Source: an uncultured Bacteroidota bacterium
GTDB taxonomy: Bacteria; Bacteroidota; Bacteroidia; Bacteroidales; UBA12077
Direction: 5' to 3'
DNA length: 64,000 bases
Assembly (NCBI GenBank): GCA_913055635.1
Contig: CAJXLK010000016.1
Coordinates: 1 to 64,000, forward strand
Part shown: one piece after another, positions 12,362-54,248 of the stretch
Position numbering within the stretch: position 1 is the first letter of the stretch
Layout: every line of letters begins with the position of its first letter
Notes under the pieces: generated by a model
What the model was told of the DNA's origin: nothing
What the model saw: only the letters and a program-made list of their open reading frames with translations
Databases searched by the model: none
Made by a program: the position numbers and the translations under genes

Positions 12362-12973
12362 ATGAGCAAAGACGAAAAAAACAAGGCCAATGAACCGTTA
12401 TCGGATTATGGTGAACCGGTTTCCTTCAATGAAGTCTGGAAAATGTTCCAGGAGACCGATAAAATGTTCAAAGAAACAGATGAGAGGTTCAAAAAGACCG
12501 ATGAGAAGTTCAAAGAGACCGACCGCAGAATCGACCGTTTAGCCAAATTATACGGCGGGGTATCGGAAAACAGCAAAGATGTTGCAGAGGAATTCTTTAG
12601 AAGAGGACTGGAAGCACGAAGCTCGCTTTTTGGCATTGAATATTTTGAAGTGGATCACCTGGCAAGAACTTCTAAGAAACTGCAGGGAGAATATGATATT
12701 GTTCTTCACAATGGAGCTTATGCCCTCGTGATTGAAGTGAAATACAAGCTGCACCCGGACGATGTGTTGGATTTTATCAACCGCAAACTGGCTAATTTCA
12801 AACCTTTGTTTCGTGAATATGCCCATAAAAAGGTGATAGGAGCAGTGGCTGGCATGAGCGTTCCTCCCGACAGCTATGAACTGGCTGCCAAACATGGCTT
12901 GCTTGTGCTGACGCAATCCGGGGAAAACATGGCTGTGATGAACCCGGAAGGATTCCGGTGGAAGGAATATTAG
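12362..12973 (+). CDS. PD-(D/E)XK nuclease-like protein with heptad coiled coil (DUF3782-like)
   Basis: 203 residues. Residues 28-58 are four nearly exact seven-residue units, (F/M)KETDxR, a short coiled coil that probably drives oligomerisation. The second half looks like a restriction-endonuclease fold: Asp112 in GEYDIVLHNG and Glu125-Val-Lys127 in VIEVKYK fit the D...ExK active site, with a helix before them. Related proteins are annotated DUF3782 or 'nuclease-like' and are common in Bacteroidota and cyanobacteria; their substrate is unknown to me. It is isolated, with no partner methylase or toxin-antitoxin gene. Nuclease activity is inferred from motifs only. Confidence 0.7.
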   Translation: MSKDEKNKANEPLSDYGEPVSFNEVWKMFQETDKMFKETDERFKKTDEKFKETDRRIDRLAKLYGGVSENSKDVAEEFFRRGLEARSSLFGIEYFEVDHLARTSKKLQGEYDIVLHNGAYALVIEVKYKLHPDDVLDFINRKLANFKPLFREYAHKKVIGAVAGMSVPPDSYELAAKHGLLVLTQSGENMAVMNPEGFRWKEY

Positions 12974-13206
12974 CGGACCACCGGCTTCCAGCCGCTATAT
13001 TATAGAAGATAGCCACGAATACCGCTTTCAGACGGGACAGCTCCACCAATGAAAGCCGGATACAGCATCTCCTCATTCAATCCCCGCCTTCGTTTCACTG
13101 CTTCGGGACAGGCATTCAATCATTCAATCATTCTCTCATTTAATCATTGCTTCATGCTCTCATTTCCCAAAAAAATCCCAACTTTGCCGGGGAGAAAAAC
13201 TGGAGG

Positions 13207-14364
13207 ATGGGTGCCAAAGTTTTGCTGATACTTTTCTACGTCTTTTTTCCCATGGCCATTTTGTATTTGTGCCGCAAATTCCCAATGGTCAACAAATTGG
13301 GGTCTGTATTGATCGCCTATGCAGTGGGTTTGATCATAGGCAACATTGGCATCCTCCCCGAGGGATCGGCCGGCGTTCAGGATGCCCTGACGATGATCAC
13401 CATTCCCCTGGCCATTCCTCTTTTGCTTTTCTCGGCCAATGTCAAATCGTGGTTCATGATGGCCGGCAAAACCATGCTGTCGATGCTGGCCGCCCTGATT
13501 GGGGTCATCGTGGTGGTGGCCACCGGTTATTTGATTTTCCGCGGGGCAGGCATGAAGGAGATGTGGAAGGTTTCCGGTATGCTGGTGGGGGTTTACACCG
13601 GAGGAACCCCGAATCTGGCTTCCCTGAAGATGATGCTCAATGTCAACCCCGATACCTACCTCATCACCCACACCTACGACATGATCCTGTCGAGTTTTTA
13701 TCTGTTGTTTTTGATTACCTTGGGAAAAAGGGTTTTTGGGGCCATCCTTCGGCCTTTTCCCACCTCAGCGGCCGGCCGGTCCATCTCTTATACCCAGCTG
13801 AACGGGCGGGATCCCTACCAGGGCATTCTGAGCAGGCGGGTGTTGGTTCCTTTGAGCAAGGCTTTTGGCCTTTCAGCGATCATTTTTGCCATCGGCGGAG
13901 GCTTAGGTTTTCTGGTACCCGAAAGTGCACGGATGGTAGTGGTTATCCTGGTCATTACCACCCTCGGCATCGGTGCCTCGTTGATTCCCTCGGTCAACCG
14001 GATTGAAAAGACTTTTGAGCTGGGCATGTACCTGATCCTGATCTTCAGTTTGGTGGTTGCTTCCATGGCCAATTTCCGCAACTTCACGGGGGCTGCCCCC
14101 GGGTTGTTCCTCTACATCACCTATGTGGTTTTTGGGGGGTTGCTTCTGCATGTTCTGATTTCCCGCTATTTTAGGGTTGACTCCGATACGGTGATGGTCA
14201 CTTCCACCGCATTGATCTGTTCACCGCCTTTTGTCCCGGTTATTGCCGGGGCCATCCGCAACCGGGAAGTCATCGTCTCGGGCCTTACCGTGGGCATCCT
14301 GGGTTATGCCGCCGGCAACTACCTGGGTTATGCCATCGCCCTTTTAATCCAAAGCCTGGGATGA
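13207..14364 (+). CDS. DUF819 family integral membrane protein
   Basis: 385-residue inner-membrane protein with about ten hydrophobic segments, beginning VLLILFYVFFPMAILYL. The family signature is visible: LSANVK-like LLLFSANVKSW, a glycine-rich GVYTGGTPNLASLKM, and THTYDMILSSFY. The family (YjcL-type) is distantly related to sodium-dependent symporters; the substrate is unknown. I chose ATG 13207, because the longer frame begins with TTG at 13147 and adds 20 polar residues before the first membrane segment. The sequence CAACTTTG (13179-13186), close to the -7 consensus, also lies inside that extension. Confidence 0.8.
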   Translation: MGAKVLLILFYVFFPMAILYLCRKFPMVNKLGSVLIAYAVGLIIGNIGILPEGSAGVQDALTMITIPLAIPLLLFSANVKSWFMMAGKTMLSMLAALIGVIVVVATGYLIFRGAGMKEMWKVSGMLVGVYTGGTPNLASLKMMLNVNPDTYLITHTYDMILSSFYLLFLITLGKRVFGAILRPFPTSAAGRSISYTQLNGRDPYQGILSRRVLVPLSKAFGLSAIIFAIGGGLGFLVPESARMVVVILVITTLGIGASLIPSVNRIEKTFELGMYLILIFSLVVASMANFRNFTGAAPGLFLYITYVVFGGLLLHVLISRYFRVDSDTVMVTSTALICSPPFVPVIAGAIRNREVIVSGLTVGILGYAAGNYLGYAIALLIQSLG

Positions 14365-46579: not shown

Positions 46580-46770
46580 AAAAAAGACCCCGCTTAGCGG
46601 GGGTGCCAAAAAAACGCTAAATAAACCCCGTAAATAAACCCCGCTTAGCGGGGTCTAGAAATTGAACCCCGCTAAGCGGGGTTTTTTTGAACCCGCTAAG
46701 TTAAACCCCGCTAAGCGGGGTCTAAAAAAGTGGGGTCTGAAATTGACCCCCGCTAAGCGGGGTCTTTTTT
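46580..46770. repeat. Cluster of five GC palindromes between convergent genes
   Basis: Intact CCCCGCTTAGCGGGG or CCCCGCTAAGCGGGG cores at about 46588, 46640, 46667, 46706 and 46748, plus broken half-copies. Those at 46666-46688 and 46745-46770 are followed by T-runs on the plus strand, and that at 46580-46603 has a T-run on the minus strand, so the cluster probably terminates both the trehalase and amyloid transcripts. Confidence 0.85.
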
Positions 46771-47314
46771 ATCGGATGATGATCTGCATATTTTTTCCCC
46801 GTTGTTGAATTTTCATCGGCAGGCTTTGGCCTGCGATGTTGTATATGCCCAATTGATTCCCGGTCTGTTCAACCTGCCGGTCCAGGTTGTTGCCTGAGAC
46901 CCGGTCAAACAGATCATTGTTGCTGCCGGTCTGGGTGTAGTCAGCTTTGTTGCCATTGCCCTTCACACCCAGGTTCATATAATTGCCATCCCCATTATTT
47001 TGTTCTGCGGTGACCTGATTCTGGTCGCCATTGATTTGGAGTTGAATATAGTTCCGGCTTTGCCGTTTAGTGACGGCTTTCTTCTCCTTCCGGGTCTGTT
47101 CAGACCGGGTTCTCTTCTGTGACATTTCAATGGAATTGCCATTGCTGCCATTTAAGCCATATGAATTGTTGCTGTTCAAATTGTTGAGCACCTGTTGCTC
47201 ATAGACTTCCATCTGGCTTTTATCCTGCTGGGCATATATTTTCCCGGGGGAACCTGTCAACCATAACAAGGAAAAAATCATCAAGATGAGGTATCTGCTT
47301 ATTGTTTTTTTCAT
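46769..47314 (-). CDS. Small curlin-repeat protein, possible amyloid nucleator (CsgB-like)
   Basis: 181 residues with a signal peptide (YLILMIFSLLWLTG, cut after YAQ). A basic Lys/Arg-rich stretch lies in the middle (RTRSEQTRKEKKAVTKRQSR), followed by about five curlin half-repeats of the N-x4-Q-x-G-x-x-N type (QLQINGDQNQVTAEQNNGDG), and a C-terminus KIQQRGKNMQIIIR. The basic character and the last repeat resemble the membrane-bound nucleator CsgB rather than the major fibre subunit. It is last in the operon headed by the fecR-type gene. Function is inferred from repeats and position; sequence identity to CsgB itself is low. Confidence 0.65.
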   Translation of the reverse strand: MKKTISRYLILMIFSLLWLTGSPGKIYAQQDKSQMEVYEQQVLNNLNSNNSYGLNGSNGNSIEMSQKRTRSEQTRKEKKAVTKRQSRNYIQLQINGDQNQVTAEQNNGDGNYMNLGVKGNGNKADYTQTGSNNDLFDRVSGNNLDRQVEQTGNQLGIYNIAGQSLPMKIQQRGKNMQIIIR

Positions 47315-47416: not shown

Positions 47417-49129
47417 TTATTGACTCTGAGAAATGGCAGCGGTGTTGCCGCTTCCGTTCTGCAGGACATTGGCGGTGTTCCCCTGGCCGGATTGCATGAT
47501 GGTGGCTTCATTCATGCTGCCGTGTACCCCGGGGGTATAGCGTTGATTCCAAAGGCCCTGGTCAACGGTAGCGGTGTTGGCGGAGCCATCCTGATGGATG
47601 TCAACCCAGTTCTGGTCACCCGACTGGTAGGTTTCGGCCATGTTGTCGCTGCCGCCTTCCTGAAGGATGTTGGAATAGTTGTAGTCGGCTTCGTTGTTAT
47701 CCCACTTGCTTTCATAGCCACCGTAGGTATAGCCGTCCTGAACCTGAACTGCTGTGTTTCCGCTGGTTTTCTGATCGATGTAGGCTTCGTTGTAGCCCCC
47801 GTCCTGATGGGTTTCAGCCGAATTGCCGCTGCCCCGGATGTCCTGGTCGGCAAAGTTGGCGTCGCCTTCCTGATAGATATCAGAGGTGTTGCCGCTGCCC
47901 CATATTTCGCTATAGGCTTCATTGTCCTTGTTTACAATGGTCGGGCCCTCGCTGTCGAGCACCTGATTGTGCACAACGGTGTTGCCATTGCCGTCGATGT
48001 AAACATCCGACAGGTTGTTGGTGCCATTCTGCTTGATGTCAACTTTTTGATCGGCTGCATTTCCGCCCAGGGAAGCATCGATATCGATCTTGGCCTTGTT
48101 GCCGGGGCTGGAGGATTTTTGCCATACATCTACATCCTGGTTGGTGCCTTCGATGTCGGCCCATACAGTGTTGTTGTCATTGATTTGTTCAATGTCGATG
48201 TCTGAATAGTCGCCTTCATACATGAACGGGTTGCTGCCAAAACCAGTGATGGTATTGTAGCTGCCCTCCTGAATGAAATCGATGTAATTGTCATCGCCCT
48301 TGAGTTTGGCATGGAGTTGATTTTCCTGGCCATCCTGTTTGGCGTAGATTTCATTGCCGTAGTTTTCTACGTCATACCATTCACCCTGGTTGATGTGCAT
48401 TTTGTTGTCATCTCCCATTTGTTCACCGGTGAATTGGTTGTCGTAGCCAAATACGGAGTAGGAGGCTTCGTTGCTGTAACCATTCTGGGTTACATCGACC
48501 TGGTTGTTGTCGCCTTCAATCCAGACGCCCTGGTCTGAATACCAGGGTGTCGAACCGACCTTGTTTTCGTTGCCGATTTGATCGATCTCGACCCTATTAC
48601 CCGTTCCCTTGGCATCGACTTCGGCCACGTTCCTATCGCCATCCTGTTCGATTTTGGCTTCACTGGAAGAGGCATGAAGCAGTTTGACAAAGGCGGCGTT
48701 TTCATCGCCCATTTGTTGGGTCTCGCCATAGTTGCCACTGCCGTTGCTGGTCTGGAATTTGGACCAGTTGGAGGAACCTTCCTGCAGCTGATAGGATTCG
48801 TTGGCGCCATTGAACATCACGCTCACTGCCTGGTTTTGGCTGCCGGTTTGTTCCTGAACAGCTTTGTTCCCGGGATTGCCCCAGTCACGCTGTTTGATTA
48901 CCGCGCTGTTCTGACTCCCATCCTGCATTTGTTCTGCAGTAGCACCTTCCGAATCGGTTGCTCCCTGGAACATACCCTGGGTGACTTCAGCGGTGTTGCT
49001 GCTGCCGCTTTGACTCTGACTGGCTGTGTTGTTGCTGCCATTCTGATTGGTGCTGGCCGAATTGCCCTGGGCCATTACCATACCGCTCATGAAAAAGACC
49101 ATGACGGCTAAACTAAGTAGTCGTTTCAT
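47417..49129 (-). CDS. Large curlin-repeat secreted protein (functional amyloid subunit)
   Basis: 570 residues with signal peptide MKRLLSLAVMVFFMSGMVMA. Nearly the whole mature protein consists of about 38 half-repeats of 11 residues with the curlin pattern N-x-A-x-x-x-Q-x-G-x, most regular at both ends (NNTASQSQSGS, GNTANVLQNGS, GNTAAISQSQ) and looser, with inserts, in the middle. It is strongly acidic (many Asp/Glu) with no Cys. Pairs of such repeats stack as strand-loop-strand layers in curli amyloid. It is much longer than E. coli CsgA (about 130 mature residues). I start at ATG 49129; the frame upstream begins with TTG in a leader shared with the next gene. Confidence 0.8.
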   Translation of the reverse strand: MKRLLSLAVMVFFMSGMVMAQGNSASTNQNGSNNTASQSQSGSSNTAEVTQGMFQGATDSEGATAEQMQDGSQNSAVIKQRDWGNPGNKAVQEQTGSQNQAVSVMFNGANESYQLQEGSSNWSKFQTSNGSGNYGETQQMGDENAAFVKLLHASSSEAKIEQDGDRNVAEVDAKGTGNRVEIDQIGNENKVGSTPWYSDQGVWIEGDNNQVDVTQNGYSNEASYSVFGYDNQFTGEQMGDDNKMHINQGEWYDVENYGNEIYAKQDGQENQLHAKLKGDDNYIDFIQEGSYNTITGFGSNPFMYEGDYSDIDIEQINDNNTVWADIEGTNQDVDVWQKSSSPGNKAKIDIDASLGGNAADQKVDIKQNGTNNLSDVYIDGNGNTVVHNQVLDSEGPTIVNKDNEAYSEIWGSGNTSDIYQEGDANFADQDIRGSGNSAETHQDGGYNEAYIDQKTSGNTAVQVQDGYTYGGYESKWDNNEADYNYSNILQEGGSDNMAETYQSGDQNWVDIHQDGSANTATVDQGLWNQRYTPGVHGSMNEATIMQSGQGNTANVLQNGSGNTAAISQSQ

Positions 49130-49157
49130 AGCATTGAATTTTTGGTTAAACAATTGG
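49127..49157 (-). promoter_or_regulatory. Shared leader before the amyloid gene
   Basis: CCAATTGTTTAACCAAAAA, two variable bases, CAATG, one variable base and TATGAAA precede this start and recur at 50074-50104 before the sister gene. It contains the start codon and may hold a translation signal. Confidence 0.6.
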
Positions 49158-49218: not shown

Positions 49219-50076
49219 TTATTGCTGGGTGATGTGCGAGATGTTGCCCATCCCCATTTGATCTACATCAGCCATGTTGCCATTGGATTGCTGATTTACC
49301 CAACTGGCGTTCATGGTCCCTTCCTGGGTGATGTATATTTCGTTGTTGAAGCGCAGGTTCTCCATGCCACCGACCCTGATATGGGCCATGTTGCCCAACT
49401 GTTCCTGGTCGATGTCGACCGTGCCATAACTGTTGTGGACTTCACCGGTTACCGCGTTGTAGCTGCCTTCCTGATCAATGTCGATGTTGGATTGATCGCC
49501 TTCATACTTGAAGAAAGCGGTTTGTTCGTCTGCGTTGAGCAACGTCACTTCTCCACCTTCTTCTGGCATTTCGCCTTCGACCATCATCCCGCCAACGTAG
49601 TTGCCGGATCCTTCCTGTTCGACCTTGATCTGGTTTTCATCGCCTTTGAGTTTGAGGTAAGCTTGGTTGCCGGTTCCTTCATAACCTTCTTCCAGCATTT
49701 CTCCGCCACCATAGCTGGATTGTTCGAGGATCACATGGTTGCCGTAATTGTAATCTCCGTCGAACCAGTTGCCCTGCTCGATGATGGCCTGGTTGCCATA
49801 GCCCAGTTGGGAGGATTCAAGCAGATTGCTGTGGCCATGAACACCGTATTCCAGTGAGTTGCCCTGGCCTGTCTGGCTGACAAAAGCTTCATTTTGCTCT
49901 GATATGTCCGAAGCATTGCTGGTTTGGTTAATCATGGCCTCATTGGAACCGGACTGTTCTAAATCGGCCATGTTGTAGTTGTTGTTTTGTTCGACCGTAG
50001 CATCATTTTGTGCCACTGAAAAGCTGGCTGCAAAGAGCGCAGCGGCAAGGAGTGCTGTTGTTTTTTTGATTTTCAT
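49219..50076 (-). CDS. Curlin-repeat secreted protein (functional amyloid subunit)
   Basis: 285 residues with signal peptide (KTTALLAAALFAASFSVAQ). The mature part consists of about 17 curlin half-repeats, for example NNYNMADLEQSGSNEAMINQ, GHSNLLESSQLGYGNQAIIEQ-type pairs and NMADVDQMGMGNISHITQQ, with inserts in the middle. It is very acidic, without Cys, and shares its 31-nt leader and overall layout with the larger protein at 47417-49129, so the two are probably duplicates. It is the second gene of the operon, 84 nt after the FecR-type gene. Confidence 0.78.
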   Translation of the reverse strand: MKIKKTTALLAAALFAASFSVAQNDATVEQNNNYNMADLEQSGSNEAMINQTSNASDISEQNEAFVSQTGQGNSLEYGVHGHSNLLESSQLGYGNQAIIEQGNWFDGDYNYGNHVILEQSSYGGGEMLEEGYEGTGNQAYLKLKGDENQIKVEQEGSGNYVGGMMVEGEMPEEGGEVTLLNADEQTAFFKYEGDQSNIDIDQEGSYNAVTGEVHNSYGTVDIDQEQLGNMAHIRVGGMENLRFNNEIYITQEGTMNASWVNQQSNGNMADVDQMGMGNISHITQQ

Positions 50077-50104
50077 AACATTGGGTTTTTGGTTAAACAA
50101 TTGG
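50074..50104 (-). promoter_or_regulatory. Shared leader before the amyloid gene
   Basis: The same 31-nt leader as at 49127-49157 (CCAATTGTTTAACCAAAAA followed by a CAATG and the start codon), differing at three positions. Confidence 0.6.
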
Positions 50105-50160: not shown

Positions 50161-51837
50161 CTAATGTCCGTTTTGCCGGAGCCTTATTGTATTGTGATTC
50201 CCTTTTTGACGGGTGTGCGCCTTATTTCCGACACCCTGCTGAATGATCCGGATCTCATTGAACCGACCCTTCATCCTGTCTTTGGTGAGTCTCCTGGTCC
50301 TACTTGTTTGATAGGCGGCTCCACTTTGGATGATCACCGCCTCATTGGAGCCTCCTTGCTGCAATAGGGTGATTTCATTAGCCTGGCCTGTTTGAAGGAT
50401 TATGCCCCGGTTGTTGCTGCCTTTGCTTCGGGTATGGGACCGATTTCTTTGGCCAAGCTGTAGCGATTGCACATGGGTATTGTATGCTTCCATAATGTTA
50501 ATGATGGAAATGTTGTCCTGACCCTGCTGTATTTGCTGGCTTGTCGAGGGTATTGGTTTATCGTCGGTTTGCCGGTTGTTCCCTTTTAGGATGGCCCGGG
50601 CCTGGTTCCCCTGTCCTTGCTGTAGCTGGAGCGATCTCAGGTTGCTGCCCACCTGGCGAATATGGGCACTGTTGTTTTGGCCTTGCTGGAGGATTCTTCC
50701 AAGCTTGTTTTGTCCCTGTTTATCTCTGGAGGTTTGGGGTGAACCTATGGTCATGCGGTTGTTTTGGCTGAAGACCGGGTGGTTGGCCTTAAAGGCTTCC
50801 AGCCATTGAATGGCCGAATGCGGGGTTGATTTATTGACCTGAAGCTCCCGGGAATTGGGATTATACTTTACCATGTCGCCGGGTTTAAGCTGAAGGGGTT
50901 GTTGGCGTGCCTGAATGTTGAGTTTGATTTTTCCCGATGAAAGGTAAACCCGGGATTGCTCCTGACCTGTGCTCACGTCGAATCGGGTACCCAGGACTTC
51001 AACCCTTAAATCGGGGGTTACCACCGAAAATTTGATCACCTGGCCCTGGCGTTGTTTTTGTTGGACATAGAAAAAGGCTTCTCCCTCCAGCTCCACCCTC
51101 CGGTGCGGTCGCTCTTGCCACCGGGCATGATAGGCGATCTTTGTTTGTTCATTCATATATACCGTGGAGCCATCGGGCAAAACAACTTTTTTGCGTTGAT
51201 TTTTTCCAGTGCGGTAATGAATGGTTTTTTCCCGGTCTGTTTGATGCGGCTTTTCCTCTGGTCTGTAGGATTGAGCCGTATTGACCCCCTGATCCGGTGA
51301 ATGGTTAAATGCCGGGCTGGGATGGCCCGCAGTGTCGATAATCAGGGTTTTACGCTCTGGTTTTCGACTCCGGGCTGCAGGTTTTTGAACTTCTCCGGGA
51401 ATGAAGGGGAAAGTTTCGGATGCGGTGCCCGGTGATTTAACAACAGCCGGCTGTGCTGGAGTTGTTTCCTGTTTTGCATCATAGGTTGTATAACGACCAA
51501 TTCCCAGCATGAACATGACCAACAAACTGGCGGCTGCTTTCATCAAAAAACCATTGGAGAGGTGGACAGGACCACGTTTTTTCCGCCCCATTTGACGGTC
51601 AAAGTATTCAGAAATTTCCATAAACCCTTCATCCATTTCTTCCCGGCTGACCCTCACCTGGTGGGGTTGTAAATCCAGAAGAATTTTGCGGGCCTCTTTC
51701 ATCTTTTCTCGCATATTGGGGCTGTTTCTCCACCAATGGTTCCAGAAATTTTCATCCTCCCGGCTGTTTCCAAAAACCCAATGACGGAATCCCTCGTCAA
51801 GCAACAAATCTTCTATGTGATGGGGGCGTTTACGCAT
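50161..51837 (-). CDS. FecR-family anti-sigma factor fused to curlin-type amyloid repeats
   Basis: 558 residues. Residues 1-95 form the cytoplasmic sigma-binding region typical of Bacteroidota FecR proteins (IEDLLLDEGFRHWVFG...FWNHWWRNSPNMREK). One membrane segment follows (about 97-114, FLMKAAASLLVMFMLGIG), then a Pro/Lys-rich linker and the FecR domain (211-335: KVVLPDGSTVYMNEQTKI, VELEGEAFFYV, VEVLGTRFDVS). In place of the usual C-terminal region, residues 374-558 are about 12 half-repeats of the curlin pattern (LQLQQGQGNQARAILKGNN, LLQQGGSNEAVIIQSG, RIIQQGVGNKAHTRQKGNHN), rich in Arg/Lys. It heads the amyloid operon and faces the ECF sigma gene. I know of no described anti-sigma factor with amyloid repeats. 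Confidence 0.85.
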   Translation of the reverse strand: MRKRPHHIEDLLLDEGFRHWVFGNSREDENFWNHWWRNSPNMREKMKEARKILLDLQPHQVRVSREEMDEGFMEISEYFDRQMGRKKRGPVHLSNGFLMKAAASLLVMFMLGIGRYTTYDAKQETTPAQPAVVKSPGTASETFPFIPGEVQKPAARSRKPERKTLIIDTAGHPSPAFNHSPDQGVNTAQSYRPEEKPHQTDREKTIHYRTGKNQRKKVVLPDGSTVYMNEQTKIAYHARWQERPHRRVELEGEAFFYVQQKQRQGQVIKFSVVTPDLRVEVLGTRFDVSTGQEQSRVYLSSGKIKLNIQARQQPLQLKPGDMVKYNPNSRELQVNKSTPHSAIQWLEAFKANHPVFSQNNRMTIGSPQTSRDKQGQNKLGRILQQGQNNSAHIRQVGSNLRSLQLQQGQGNQARAILKGNNRQTDDKPIPSTSQQIQQGQDNISIINIMEAYNTHVQSLQLGQRNRSHTRSKGSNNRGIILQTGQANEITLLQQGGSNEAVIIQSGAAYQTSRTRRLTKDRMKGRFNEIRIIQQGVGNKAHTRQKGNHNTIRLRQNGH

Positions 51838-52270
51838 CTGGTTATTTTAATTTGGTCTAAATAAAAAATCTTCACCCTGTAAAAGGGAATTTTTTCCTTT
51901 TTATGGACAGGTGAATCCAAAAAAATTTCAGATAATTTTGTCTTTTATTTGTAAATGGTTGAATATTCGCAAAAAAAGCTAATGCGCCGGGGCTTTTTGG
52001 CCGATTGCTCATGCGAAGTGTTCCCATCCAAGAGACCGTTGTTTATAAAAGATGGGCTTTTTTTGTTCTATTCGGCTGATAAACAAATTGATAGCTTGAC
52101 CCCCTAATGTGTTTCAACCATATGCCCTGTTGGATTGTTATACATTGCCTTCCCTGACCATATGAATAACCTGCAGGGTATGAACCTGAGAAAGCGGAAA
52201 GTCAGGGGGTATGCTCTCTGCTTGAGTTCAACCTGATTGCCATCTTTACCATTCTAATAATTCAGTGCTT
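51838..52270. other. Divergent regulatory region, fecR-type gene / ECF sigma
   Basis: About 430 bp of AT-rich DNA between the anti-sigma and sigma genes, with no gene. TAATTTTG (51933-51940) fits the -7 consensus on the plus strand, without a -33 partner. A repeat AAAAGGGAATTTTTTCCTTTT lies near 51880. Promoters for both directions, and any sigma-dependent site, should be here. Confidence 0.5.
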
Positions 52271-52867
52271 ATGGCGCGGGAAGCGGTTAACAAGAATGAC
52301 GATTATTACCTGTGGGAACGTTTCAAAAAGGGGGAACGCTCTGCCCTGAGCCAAATATACTACCAAAATTACCCCGCCCTTTACAATTATGGATTACGGT
52401 TAAGTTCTGATTCTGCCCTTATTAAAGATACCATCCAGGAACTTTTTTTTGACTTGCTATCCAGGCTCACCCGGCTGGGGCCTACTGACAATATAGCGGT
52501 TTATCTGTGGACGGTTTTCCGGCGCAGAATCATTCATAAATTAAAGCAGGCGCGCAACTATTCTTACTGGGACCATGAGGATCCGGTTTTTCATGTAGAA
52601 GTGGCTGAATCGCCGGAGGACACTATCATTGGCAGGGAACAAGAGGATGCCGTTTCCGGCAGGTTGCGGGATATTTTGGACGAACTGCCCCCCCGCGAGC
52701 GAGAGGCCATTTATCTGAAATATTATCAGAATATGGGTTATAAAGAAATCTCTCAGGTAATGGGGGTAAAGTACAGTTCGGTGGGAAAGCTCATCTACCG
52801 GGCCATGACAACGCTACGGGAACACGGTAAAGTGGGGCTAAAGGGAGCGGATGAACAGCTTTATTAG
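52271..52867 (+). CDS. ECF-type RNA polymerase sigma factor
   Basis: 198 residues, sigma-70 family, extracytoplasmic-function group. Region 2 is visible in YLWERFKKGERSALSQIYYQ and LIKDTIQELFFDLLSRL, and region 4 in LPPREREAIYLKYYQNMGYK followed by EISQVMGVKYSSVGKLIYRA, the helix-turn-helix that reads the -35 element. I start at ATG 52271; the frame also allows GTG 52265. It is divergent from the FecR-curlin gene, the normal partner arrangement for Bacteroidota sigma/anti-sigma pairs. The expected role is to drive the amyloid operon, itself, or both. Confidence 0.92.
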   Translation: MAREAVNKNDDYYLWERFKKGERSALSQIYYQNYPALYNYGLRLSSDSALIKDTIQELFFDLLSRLTRLGPTDNIAVYLWTVFRRRIIHKLKQARNYSYWDHEDPVFHVEVAESPEDTIIGREQEDAVSGRLRDILDELPPREREAIYLKYYQNMGYKEISQVMGVKYSSVGKLIYRAMTTLREHGKVGLKGADEQLY

Positions 52868-53057: not shown

Positions 53058-54248
53058 ATGCAACGTCAGTACACAAGCCTGCTCTTCTTCGTTATATTGT
53101 TTTTTTCGGGGCTAGGTGCTCATGGGATTGAATTTGCCCGCCTTATTGATCCTTCTTCCTGTCAAATGGCAGATTCTCCGGATAATAGAAGCCACGAGCT
53201 GGCCATCAGCGAGCCCCGGTTGATGGACAAGGGCATAACCCAGGCCCGTTTTTCTGTAGATTTTCAGAATCCCCGGGGGCGGGAGATACAGCATGGTGGG
53301 TTTTGTTGGTCGCGTGAAAGCACCCCTAACCGAAAAGACCATTTCGTGAGGTTGCAGGTGGGAGCAGAAGGGTTCAGCGGGGAGCTCAGCCAGCTGAAGA
53401 AGGCAACGGTGTACTATGTCCGGGCATATGTGATGGCCGATTCAGCAATTTTTTATGGAAAGCAGCACATTTTCACGACCCATGGATTTTTCAACGGCGC
53501 CCGAATCCCCCTGACCTATGTTGAGGGAGGAACCTTCCAAATGGGCTGCACTGCAGAGACCAACAATTGTTACGGCGATGAGACACCGGTACATCGGGTT
53601 CAGGTGAGAGATTTTCGCATCAGCCCCTATGAAGTCACCTGCAATCAGTATTGCGCTTTTCTGAACCAATCGGCCATTTCATCCAGGGGAACCATTGGGG
53701 AGCGCATGTATGTTGACATCATGGACTCAGATGCTTTAATCCGCTATTCAGGTGGCAAGTTCATTCCCAACCCGGGGAAAGGCGATCATCCCATGACCGA
53801 GGTCACCTGGTACGGGGCCCAGGCCTTTTGCGAATGGCTGGGCGGACGCCTGCCCACAGAAGCCGAGTGGGAGTATGCGGCACGTGGAGGCGCACAGCAG
53901 CCCGATTATAAATACAGCGGGTCCGATCAACTCAAAGACGTAGGGTGGTTCAATGGCAATTCCGGTCAACAAACCCACCCGGTCGGCCAAAAAGCCCCCA
54001 ATGAACTGGGCCTCTATGATATGAGCGGAAACGTCTGGGAGTGGTGCTATGATTGGTATGGGTTTGATTATTACGGGAATAGTCCCGTCAGCCAGCCGAT
54101 GGGGCCGAATAAAGGCTCGGCCAAGGTGATCCGCGGCGGCGCCTGGAATATGGACCCCTGGAATTGCCGAATATCCAACCGGTATAACCGTTCACCCAAG
54201 ATCACCTATAAATATTACGGTTTTCGCCTGGTGATCCCGGAGGGTTAA
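53058..54248 (+). CDS. SUMF1/FGE-sulfatase domain exported protein
   Basis: 396 residues with a Sec signal (LLFFVILFFSGLGAHG). Residues 30-150 resemble a fibronectin-III-like domain, with the strand VYYVRAYVMADSAIFYGKQH. Residues about 155-395 form the formylglycine-generating-enzyme fold: TYVEGGTFQMGC, GDETPVHRVQVRDFRISPYE, EWLGGRLPTEAEWEYAARGG, GLYDMSGNVWEWCYDWYG, VIRGGAWNMDPWNCRISNRY, YYGFRLV. The exact catalytic Cys pair of true FGE is not evident, so activity is uncertain; many Bacteroidota homologues act as surface or lipoprotein-associated proteins. It starts 190 nt after the sigma gene and could be part of its regulon. Confidence 0.85.
   Translation: MQRQYTSLLFFVILFFSGLGAHGIEFARLIDPSSCQMADSPDNRSHELAISEPRLMDKGITQARFSVDFQNPRGREIQHGGFCWSRESTPNRKDHFVRLQVGAEGFSGELSQLKKATVYYVRAYVMADSAIFYGKQHIFTTHGFFNGARIPLTYVEGGTFQMGCTAETNNCYGDETPVHRVQVRDFRISPYEVTCNQYCAFLNQSAISSRGTIGERMYVDIMDSDALIRYSGGKFIPNPGKGDHPMTEVTWYGAQAFCEWLGGRLPTEAEWEYAARGGAQQPDYKYSGSDQLKDVGWFNGNSGQQTHPVGQKAPNELGLYDMSGNVWEWCYDWYGFDYYGNSPVSQPMGPNKGSAKVIRGGAWNMDPWNCRISNRYNRSPKITYKYYGFRLVIPEG

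Follow-up and report, generated by a model that had tools for sequence, protein, structure and literature searches.

Why should an anti-sigma factor of the FecR type end in the repeats of curlin, the subunit of curli amyloid? The question is raised by a gene at 50161..51837 (minus strand) of a 64,000-nucleotide stretch of DNA, here called the window, from an uncultured Bacteroidota bacterium of the Bacteroidales lineage UBA12077 (assembly GCA_913055635.1, contig CAJXLK010000016.1, positions 1 to 64,000). A single unbroken open reading frame (ORF), Pfam matches and a structural model define its product as a FecR-curlin fusion of 558 amino acids (aa). The architecture recurs and is conserved, lacks the FecR_C domain, and shows linkage with curlin genes, csg genes and one group of extracytoplasmic function (ECF) sigma factors. 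At close to an even chance, we tentatively regard the protein as a FecR-type sigma regulator in which a curlin domain has replaced the receptor-reading C-terminal domain, and which would control curlin transcription via sigma release.

The window fusion consists of a cytoplasmic part (residues 1-95), a predicted membrane helix (~96-114), a FecR domain (~203-350), a linker and a curlin domain (~379-556). The Pfam family FecR (PF04773) matches residues 208-305 with an expectation value (E) of 3.5e-18 (66.3 bits against a curated cut-off of 24), and Curlin_rpt (PF07012) matches in three stretches (E 5.9e-11, 42.6 bits against 20.7). Pfam, profile, model and repeat register together place the curlin domain at residues 381-558 (50164..50697, minus strand). 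In the full-length AlphaFold model the N-terminal part is helical, residues 96-114 form a helix, strands run across the FecR part, and 14 regular successive strands occupy 379-556; ten-residue blocks of the curlin part mostly reach a predicted local distance difference test score (pLDDT) of 59-83, dropping to 45 and 36 at two inserts. A Foldseek search pairs the FecR part with the solved FecR-type periplasmic domains of Parabacteroides BDI_1681 and PupR, and a profile of the fusions finds unfused FecRs over positions 1-265 (G270 at E 1.4e-49, G067 at E 1.2e-46). A sequence-only reading of this DNA had recognized the FecR-type N-terminal part, the membrane segment, the FecR domain and a C-terminal curlin region; the FecR match, the modeled helix and the profile bear out the first three, and the Curlin_rpt match confirms the last. 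Its estimate of about 12 half-repeats in residues 374-558 was roughly right, since the models give 14 strands. By motif, Gly283-Thr284 (50983..50988, minus strand) is the counterpart of the FecR/FoxR self-cleavage site, and this GT pair is retained in all four aligned fusions described below as well as in a fifth, truncated protein (G002:C43). FecR_C was found in none of the four complete fusions, that of the window included (Pfam scan, E<=1). Unlike a free exported subunit with its N-terminal signal, the repeats sit, by sequence and model, after an internal membrane helix and the ~95 cytoplasmic residues that precede it.

Strict curlin half-repeats number seven in window residues 371-558, compared with a mean of 1.0 and a maximum of 5 in 500 shuffles, and six of ten register steps measure exactly 11 residues. 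Across the four complete fusions the counts are 7, 4, 4, and 6 (shuffle means 0.65-1.2), and register steps of exactly 11 residues are frequent. The best of 500 shuffles is surpassed by the 7 of the window but not by the other three counts (4, 4, 6; best shuffles 5, 4, 6), so that the curlin case for these proteins is carried by alignment and profile. The profile in question, A2, was built from the curlin domains of the four complete fusions and recovers solved curli structures, the subunit 8c50 at E 2.7e-25 and the E. coli major curlin 8enq at E 0.0033. For the window fusion, chance repeats are ruled out by the Pfam match, the profile match to curli structures and the shuffle test. Modeled alone, the curlin domain is solenoid-like (pLDDT 69), and the comparison lists from Foldseek and VIA-align contain no curli fibre entries. 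Glycine, glutamine or asparagine occupies 28 of the 42 invariant columns of the domain among the four fusions, and in each of them (4/4) the last half-repeat is intact and stops three residues short of the C-terminus. Strict half-repeats are denser in the neighboring main curlins, with 13 in 285 aa and 22 in 570 aa, versus 7 in 188 aa of the fusion.

The genus was sampled with five genomes, including that of the window (G000). Four complete, stop-free fusions of 549-561 aa occur at four loci in three of these genomes: two in G000 and one each in G002 (contig C221) and G001 (C454), so that the architecture is found in two genomes of the genus besides that of the window. This recurrence in three assemblies rules out an assembly error or frameshift that joined two genes. 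The second fusion of G000 lies on contig C41 (L016:9532-11076) in a csgE/csgG cluster. FecR and Curlin_rpt are both matched in 4/4 complete fusions (E<=1), in one domain order. Curlin_rpt is above cut-off in two of the three non-window proteins; the exception is the C41 fusion, whose own match of 14.7 bits lies below cut-off and which aligns with the other fusions through the domain. Two further fusion-type loci are cut off by contig ends. The end of C41 holds the initial 60 residues of a third fusion-type gene of G000 (93 bits), and G002:C43 encodes a FecR protein that is cut before any curlin part, divergent from a sigma factor 55% identical to that of the window and, by eye, with the window's sulfatase-like and DUF4168-like neighbors. 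No complete fusion was found in G003 (94% complete) or G004 (57% complete). At E<=1e-5, curlin repeats were detected in three of 24 family genomes, all three of the fusion genus, with G001 below the threshold though it carries a curlin gene.

Pairwise identity among the four fusions is 37-52% for curlin residues 381-506, 37-52% for the FecR domain, 35-48% for the cytoplasmic part and 10-41% for the linker. In a tree of 16 rows, the fusion FecR parts form one clade (5/5, counting C43 as a fusion; support 100/99). Fusions were trimmed to 370 aa for this tree, and 11 of 20 loci tried for unfused rows were kept after filtering by motif and length. Four unfused relatives whose surroundings were read (G284, G270, G067, and G012) belong to sigma/FecR/SusC-type loci, three of them with a SusD-type gene; gene names at these loci were assigned by eye, except for FecR, FecR_C and the receptor plug of G284. 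FecR_C ends the FecRs of both unfused relatives scanned (G284 and G270). Because these relatives carry FecR_C where the fusion has curlin, it seems from sequence comparison that a sigma/FecR pair of the sigma/FecR/SusC type exchanged FecR_C for a curlin domain. The C-terminal domain of FoxR and PupR is STN-like and meets the STN-type domain of the receptor (parts of PMC11637429 and PMC7186176), and curlins join head to tail through beta-sheet augmentation (part of PMC10192328). The swap would therefore retain a logic of like meeting like.

The fusion adjoins its presumed partners in the window. Reading along the minus strand behind it are curlin subunit gene 1 (49219..50100, with a TTG start listed and an ATG at 50076) and curlin subunit gene 2, the largest (47417..49153; TTG start listed, ATG at 49129), both acidic and identified by Pfam, and a minor curlin-like gene (46769..47314) whose Pfam match is below cut-off (E 0.15). 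On the other side, across a divergent intergenic region of 0.43 kb (51838..52264, assigned to no strand), which presumably holds both promoters, an ECF sigma gene identified by ORF and Pfam runs on the plus strand from 52265 (GTG) or 52271 (ATG) to 52867. The divergent sigma factor and the operon-like row of amyloid genes had both been anticipated from the letters, and both stand, the last gene of the row at sub-threshold strength. The same holds for the lack of a receptor gene: no TonB-dependent receptor is encoded among the five window ORFs of at least 600 aa, other loci of the genome not having been searched for receptors. No csg secretion gene was seen among the ORFs scanned near the window fusion.

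Such genes appear at the second locus of the same genome. On C41, a CarboxypepD_reg/PD40 lipoprotein gene comes ahead of the fusion, and a curlin gene and a minor curlin-like gene come after it; the opposite strand carries csgE, csgG and an ECF sigma gene. Related sigma factors of this C41 type adjoin csgG in three genomes (G000:C41, G002:C83, and G003:C34), and at both window-type loci (the window and G002:C43) the ECF sigma factor is divergent from the fusion-type gene. A third kind of sigma gene is accompanied by curlin and lipoprotein genes in G000:C67 and by the lipoprotein gene in G002:C255; its G003:C139 copy borders a contig end, and the permease gene across from that end is, by eye, the one of C67. 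Within the sigma tree, the window pair (92/99) and the C67 kind (100/100) form subgroups; the csgG kind does not separate as a group.

From the gene neighborhood, the N-terminus of the fusion would bind the neighboring ECF sigma factor and hold it at the inner membrane, and by motif its periplasmic FecR domain probably cleaves itself at Gly283-Thr284, as E. coli FecR and P. aeruginosa FoxR are known to do at a Gly-Thr pair (part of PMC11637429). The uncapped C-terminal end of the curlin domain could then meet curlin subunits crossing the periplasm towards the CsgG pore. Contact with these subunits, or with their carrier CsgE, may alter ECF sigma release and so curli production: docking, or its loss, would alter the access of proteases to the FecR stump and hence sigma release, and the freed sigma factor would set the transcription level of the curlin operon and perhaps that of the csg secretion genes too. 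As to the sign of the response, we lean slightly, by analogy, towards docked, unsecreted curlin meaning that sigma is held, which would act as a brake on periplasmic amyloid, because partner contact shields the anti-sigma factor FoxR from proteolysis (part of PMC11637429). A more specific form of the proposal is possible, though we rate it as somewhat doubtful: templated docking of amyloid subunits on the anti-sigma factor's own curlin domain would be the signal, and amyloid growth the ligand that sets amyloid-gene transcription. The amyloid-sensing switch suggested by the sequence-only reading has thus gained a second fusion in a csg cluster, sigma factors beside csgG in three genomes and unfused relatives with FecR_C; that curlin stacking changes sigma release is a step we still infer.

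Several observations weigh against a sigma regulator read through its curlin domain. Mean confidence of the full-length fusion model is poor (pLDDT 50.8), and the eight curli-locus sigma factors group weakly (79/91). Electrostatic pairing of fusion and curlins was considered and rejected, as the window fusion domain, at a net charge of +17, faces curlins at -34 and -57, whereas the fusion domains of the other three loci are at +1, -14, and -15. In G003, the last two curlin genes of the window are joined directly to the sulfatase-like gene, without sigma, fusion or curlin 1, so that curlins can exist without this unit. The comparison indicates that sigma, fusion and curlin 1 are lost or gained together, and the region upstream of the G003 curlin is by eye still like the window fusion promoter, which fits a loss. 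Since the G003 csgG contig (C34) ends ~120 bases past the lipoprotein gene, where a csg-cluster fusion would lie, absence of a fusion from that locus is not shown. Finally, G001 (an assembly of 530 contigs) carries a fusion but yielded no sigma factor of this group, its nearest sigma factor belonging to another. A fusion without a detected partner would suit a structural role, as inner-membrane anchor, chaperone or nucleator for curlin, with the FecR scaffold kept and regulation gone; intact half-repeats with an open end could likewise template or hold curlin subunits. Yet the cytoplasmic part is conserved almost like the periplasmic domains and aligns with unfused FecRs, and sigma is the divergent neighbor at both window-type loci, which makes a purely structural protein quite improbable.

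The main rival follows from the report that CsgE binds the CsgA repeats and CsgG (part of PMC6957492). The curlin domain could be a pseudo-substrate that CsgE/CsgG, rather than curlin, captures when the channel is ready, pulling the anti-sigma factor and freeing sigma as a check of export readiness, akin to that of FlgM in flagella. The C41 fusion, in its csgE/csgG cluster with sigma beside csgG, is placed in keeping with this, but the window fusion has its own sigma and curlins and lacks any csg secretion gene in the neighborhood scanned, and CsgG first recognizes E. coli CsgA by a free N-terminus (part of PMC6957492) that the fusion does not have; we consider this capture rather unlikely. 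That the genes fused by neutral accident and the repeats sense nothing is very improbable: the distribution is narrow (one genus), curlin sequence is repetitive and contig ends terminate several of these loci, but four complete stop-free fusions share one domain order at four loci in three genomes, and their curlin part is conserved like FecR and above the linker.

Beyond the genus, no fusion was found: matches listed for overlapping samples of 98 relatives and of 25 family, 393 order, 395 phylum and 395 class genomes include none in a frame longer than 430 aa (complete fusions measure 549-561 aa), the order, phylum and class searches having assessed no more than three candidates per genome at strict E-values, at which unrelated FecR-curlin fusions could be missed. 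A search of the 393 order genomes with A2 (up to nine candidates each) gave matches in three, G000, G166, and G370, the latter two with curlins without FecR and with one of their frames cut by a contig start. Pattern scans of genome contigs yielded no relative among 10 stretches with the full protein and three in 86 stretches with A2, namely L093 (by length and match the G002:C221 contig) and two plain curlins. The curli cluster of G166, from another family of the order, shows no fusion over the 19 kb examined; next to its curlin gene lie two LytTR response regulators (L163:11646-12365 and 12756-13478, minus strand), a different candidate regulator of csgD-less curli.

Several further features accompany these loci. 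A 10-nt motif in the divergent intergenic region of the window, TGTCCATAAA (51900-51909, minus strand), is suggestive only. The exact form TGTCCAYAAA occurs six times in 19 sources: upstream of three fusions, upstream of the fusion-less G003 curlin and twice inside unrelated genes (L017, L122). Among seven upstream regions, the best 9-mer, which overlaps the TGTCCAYAAA stretch, is present in six at one mismatch (3-5 in the best of each of 15 shuffles) and the best 10-mer in four (2-4 in shuffles); these shuffles preserved base content only, and the shared promoter motif, being suggestive, is not used as evidence. Both main curlins of the window have the 17-mer AATTGTTTAACCAAAAA immediately ahead of their start codons (49139-49155 and 50086-50102, minus strand). 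Exact copies number six in G000 (all curlin loci of C16, C41, and C67), two in G001:C454 and one in G003:C74, with none in G002, G004, G005, G006, or G007 and two one-mismatch copies in G002:C221; it may serve curlin genes as a leader or regulatory element. The last curlin-like gene is followed by a terminator-like hairpin with a T run (46732..46750, minus strand), although terminator-like matches exceed shuffles all over the window region (27 versus 11.2). Next to the sigma gene is a sulfatase-modifying-factor-like gene (53058-54248, plus strand; PF03781), also seen by eye at the G002:C43 and G003:C74 loci.

Elsewhere in the genus, the third FecR-curlin-type gene is broken off by the end of C41, and C67 stops upstream of a curlin gene; the two contigs may be neighbors across an assembly gap, forming one large curli cluster. 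Beside the C67 curlins, L017:7530-8030 (minus strand) encodes a protein like CsgH (PF21112 at E 2.1e-5; its 24.9 bits fall just short of the cut-off of 27); csgH was named in Alphaproteobacteria by a 2012 survey (PMC3521004). The CarboxypepD_reg/beta-propeller-like lipoprotein gene recurs at curli loci of the genus and of G166 (L016:7423-8940, L017:6004-7512, L116:5901-7439, and L163:4364-5893), and is a possible overlooked curli-associated protein.

The same survey found csgD in no Bacteroidetes genus except Spirosoma and expected other regulators (PMC3521004). The sigma/FecR-curlin pair is a concrete candidate for such a regulator of curli in one csgD-less Bacteroidota lineage. If the proposed sigma regulation is true, the cell would gauge amyloid of its own making at a dangerous place, the periplasm, by way of a one-domain swap that keeps the like-meets-like logic of FecR; amyloid sensing would become open to ordinary reporter genetics, and the pair could serve as a modular amyloid-responsive gene switch. 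The sequence-only reading knew of no such fusion, and no description was found among the papers listed from the literature searched (preprints and most subscription papers lying outside its reach). Papers naming both FecR and curlin deal, by their listings, with E. coli or with plants, coatings and platinum, and FecR is not mentioned in the curli papers PMC3521004 and PMC10192328.

This FecR, with its curlin domain, would be a new form of cell-surface signaling. With FecR, FoxR, PupR and the ECF sigma/FecR/SusC/SusD systems of Bacteroidota it shares the cytoplasmic part, the membrane helix, the FecR domain with its GT pair and a neighboring ECF sigma factor; it differs in ending in curlin instead of the STN-like FecR_C, and in the lack of a TonB-dependent receptor among the long window ORFs. 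CsgA and CsgB (8c50, 8enq) resemble it in the curlin repeat, the 11-residue half-repeat register and the profile match to both, and the model of its curlin domain is solenoid-like. Its repeats differ in forming the C-terminal part of a membrane protein, beyond a cytoplasmic part, and include fewer perfect half-repeats than the neighboring main curlins. The loci themselves recall csg clusters, with csgE, csgG and curlin genes on C41 and csgF and csgG on G002:C83, but csgBAC of E. coli is under CsgD (part of PMC6957492), and an ECF sigma factor and a FecR-curlin protein are found here. A possible likeness to FlgM concerns logic only and implies no sequence relation: in both cases an anti-sigma factor would report the traffic of a structure whose genes it controls. 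FlgM, the anti-sigma factor coupled to flagellar export, is small, soluble and itself exported.

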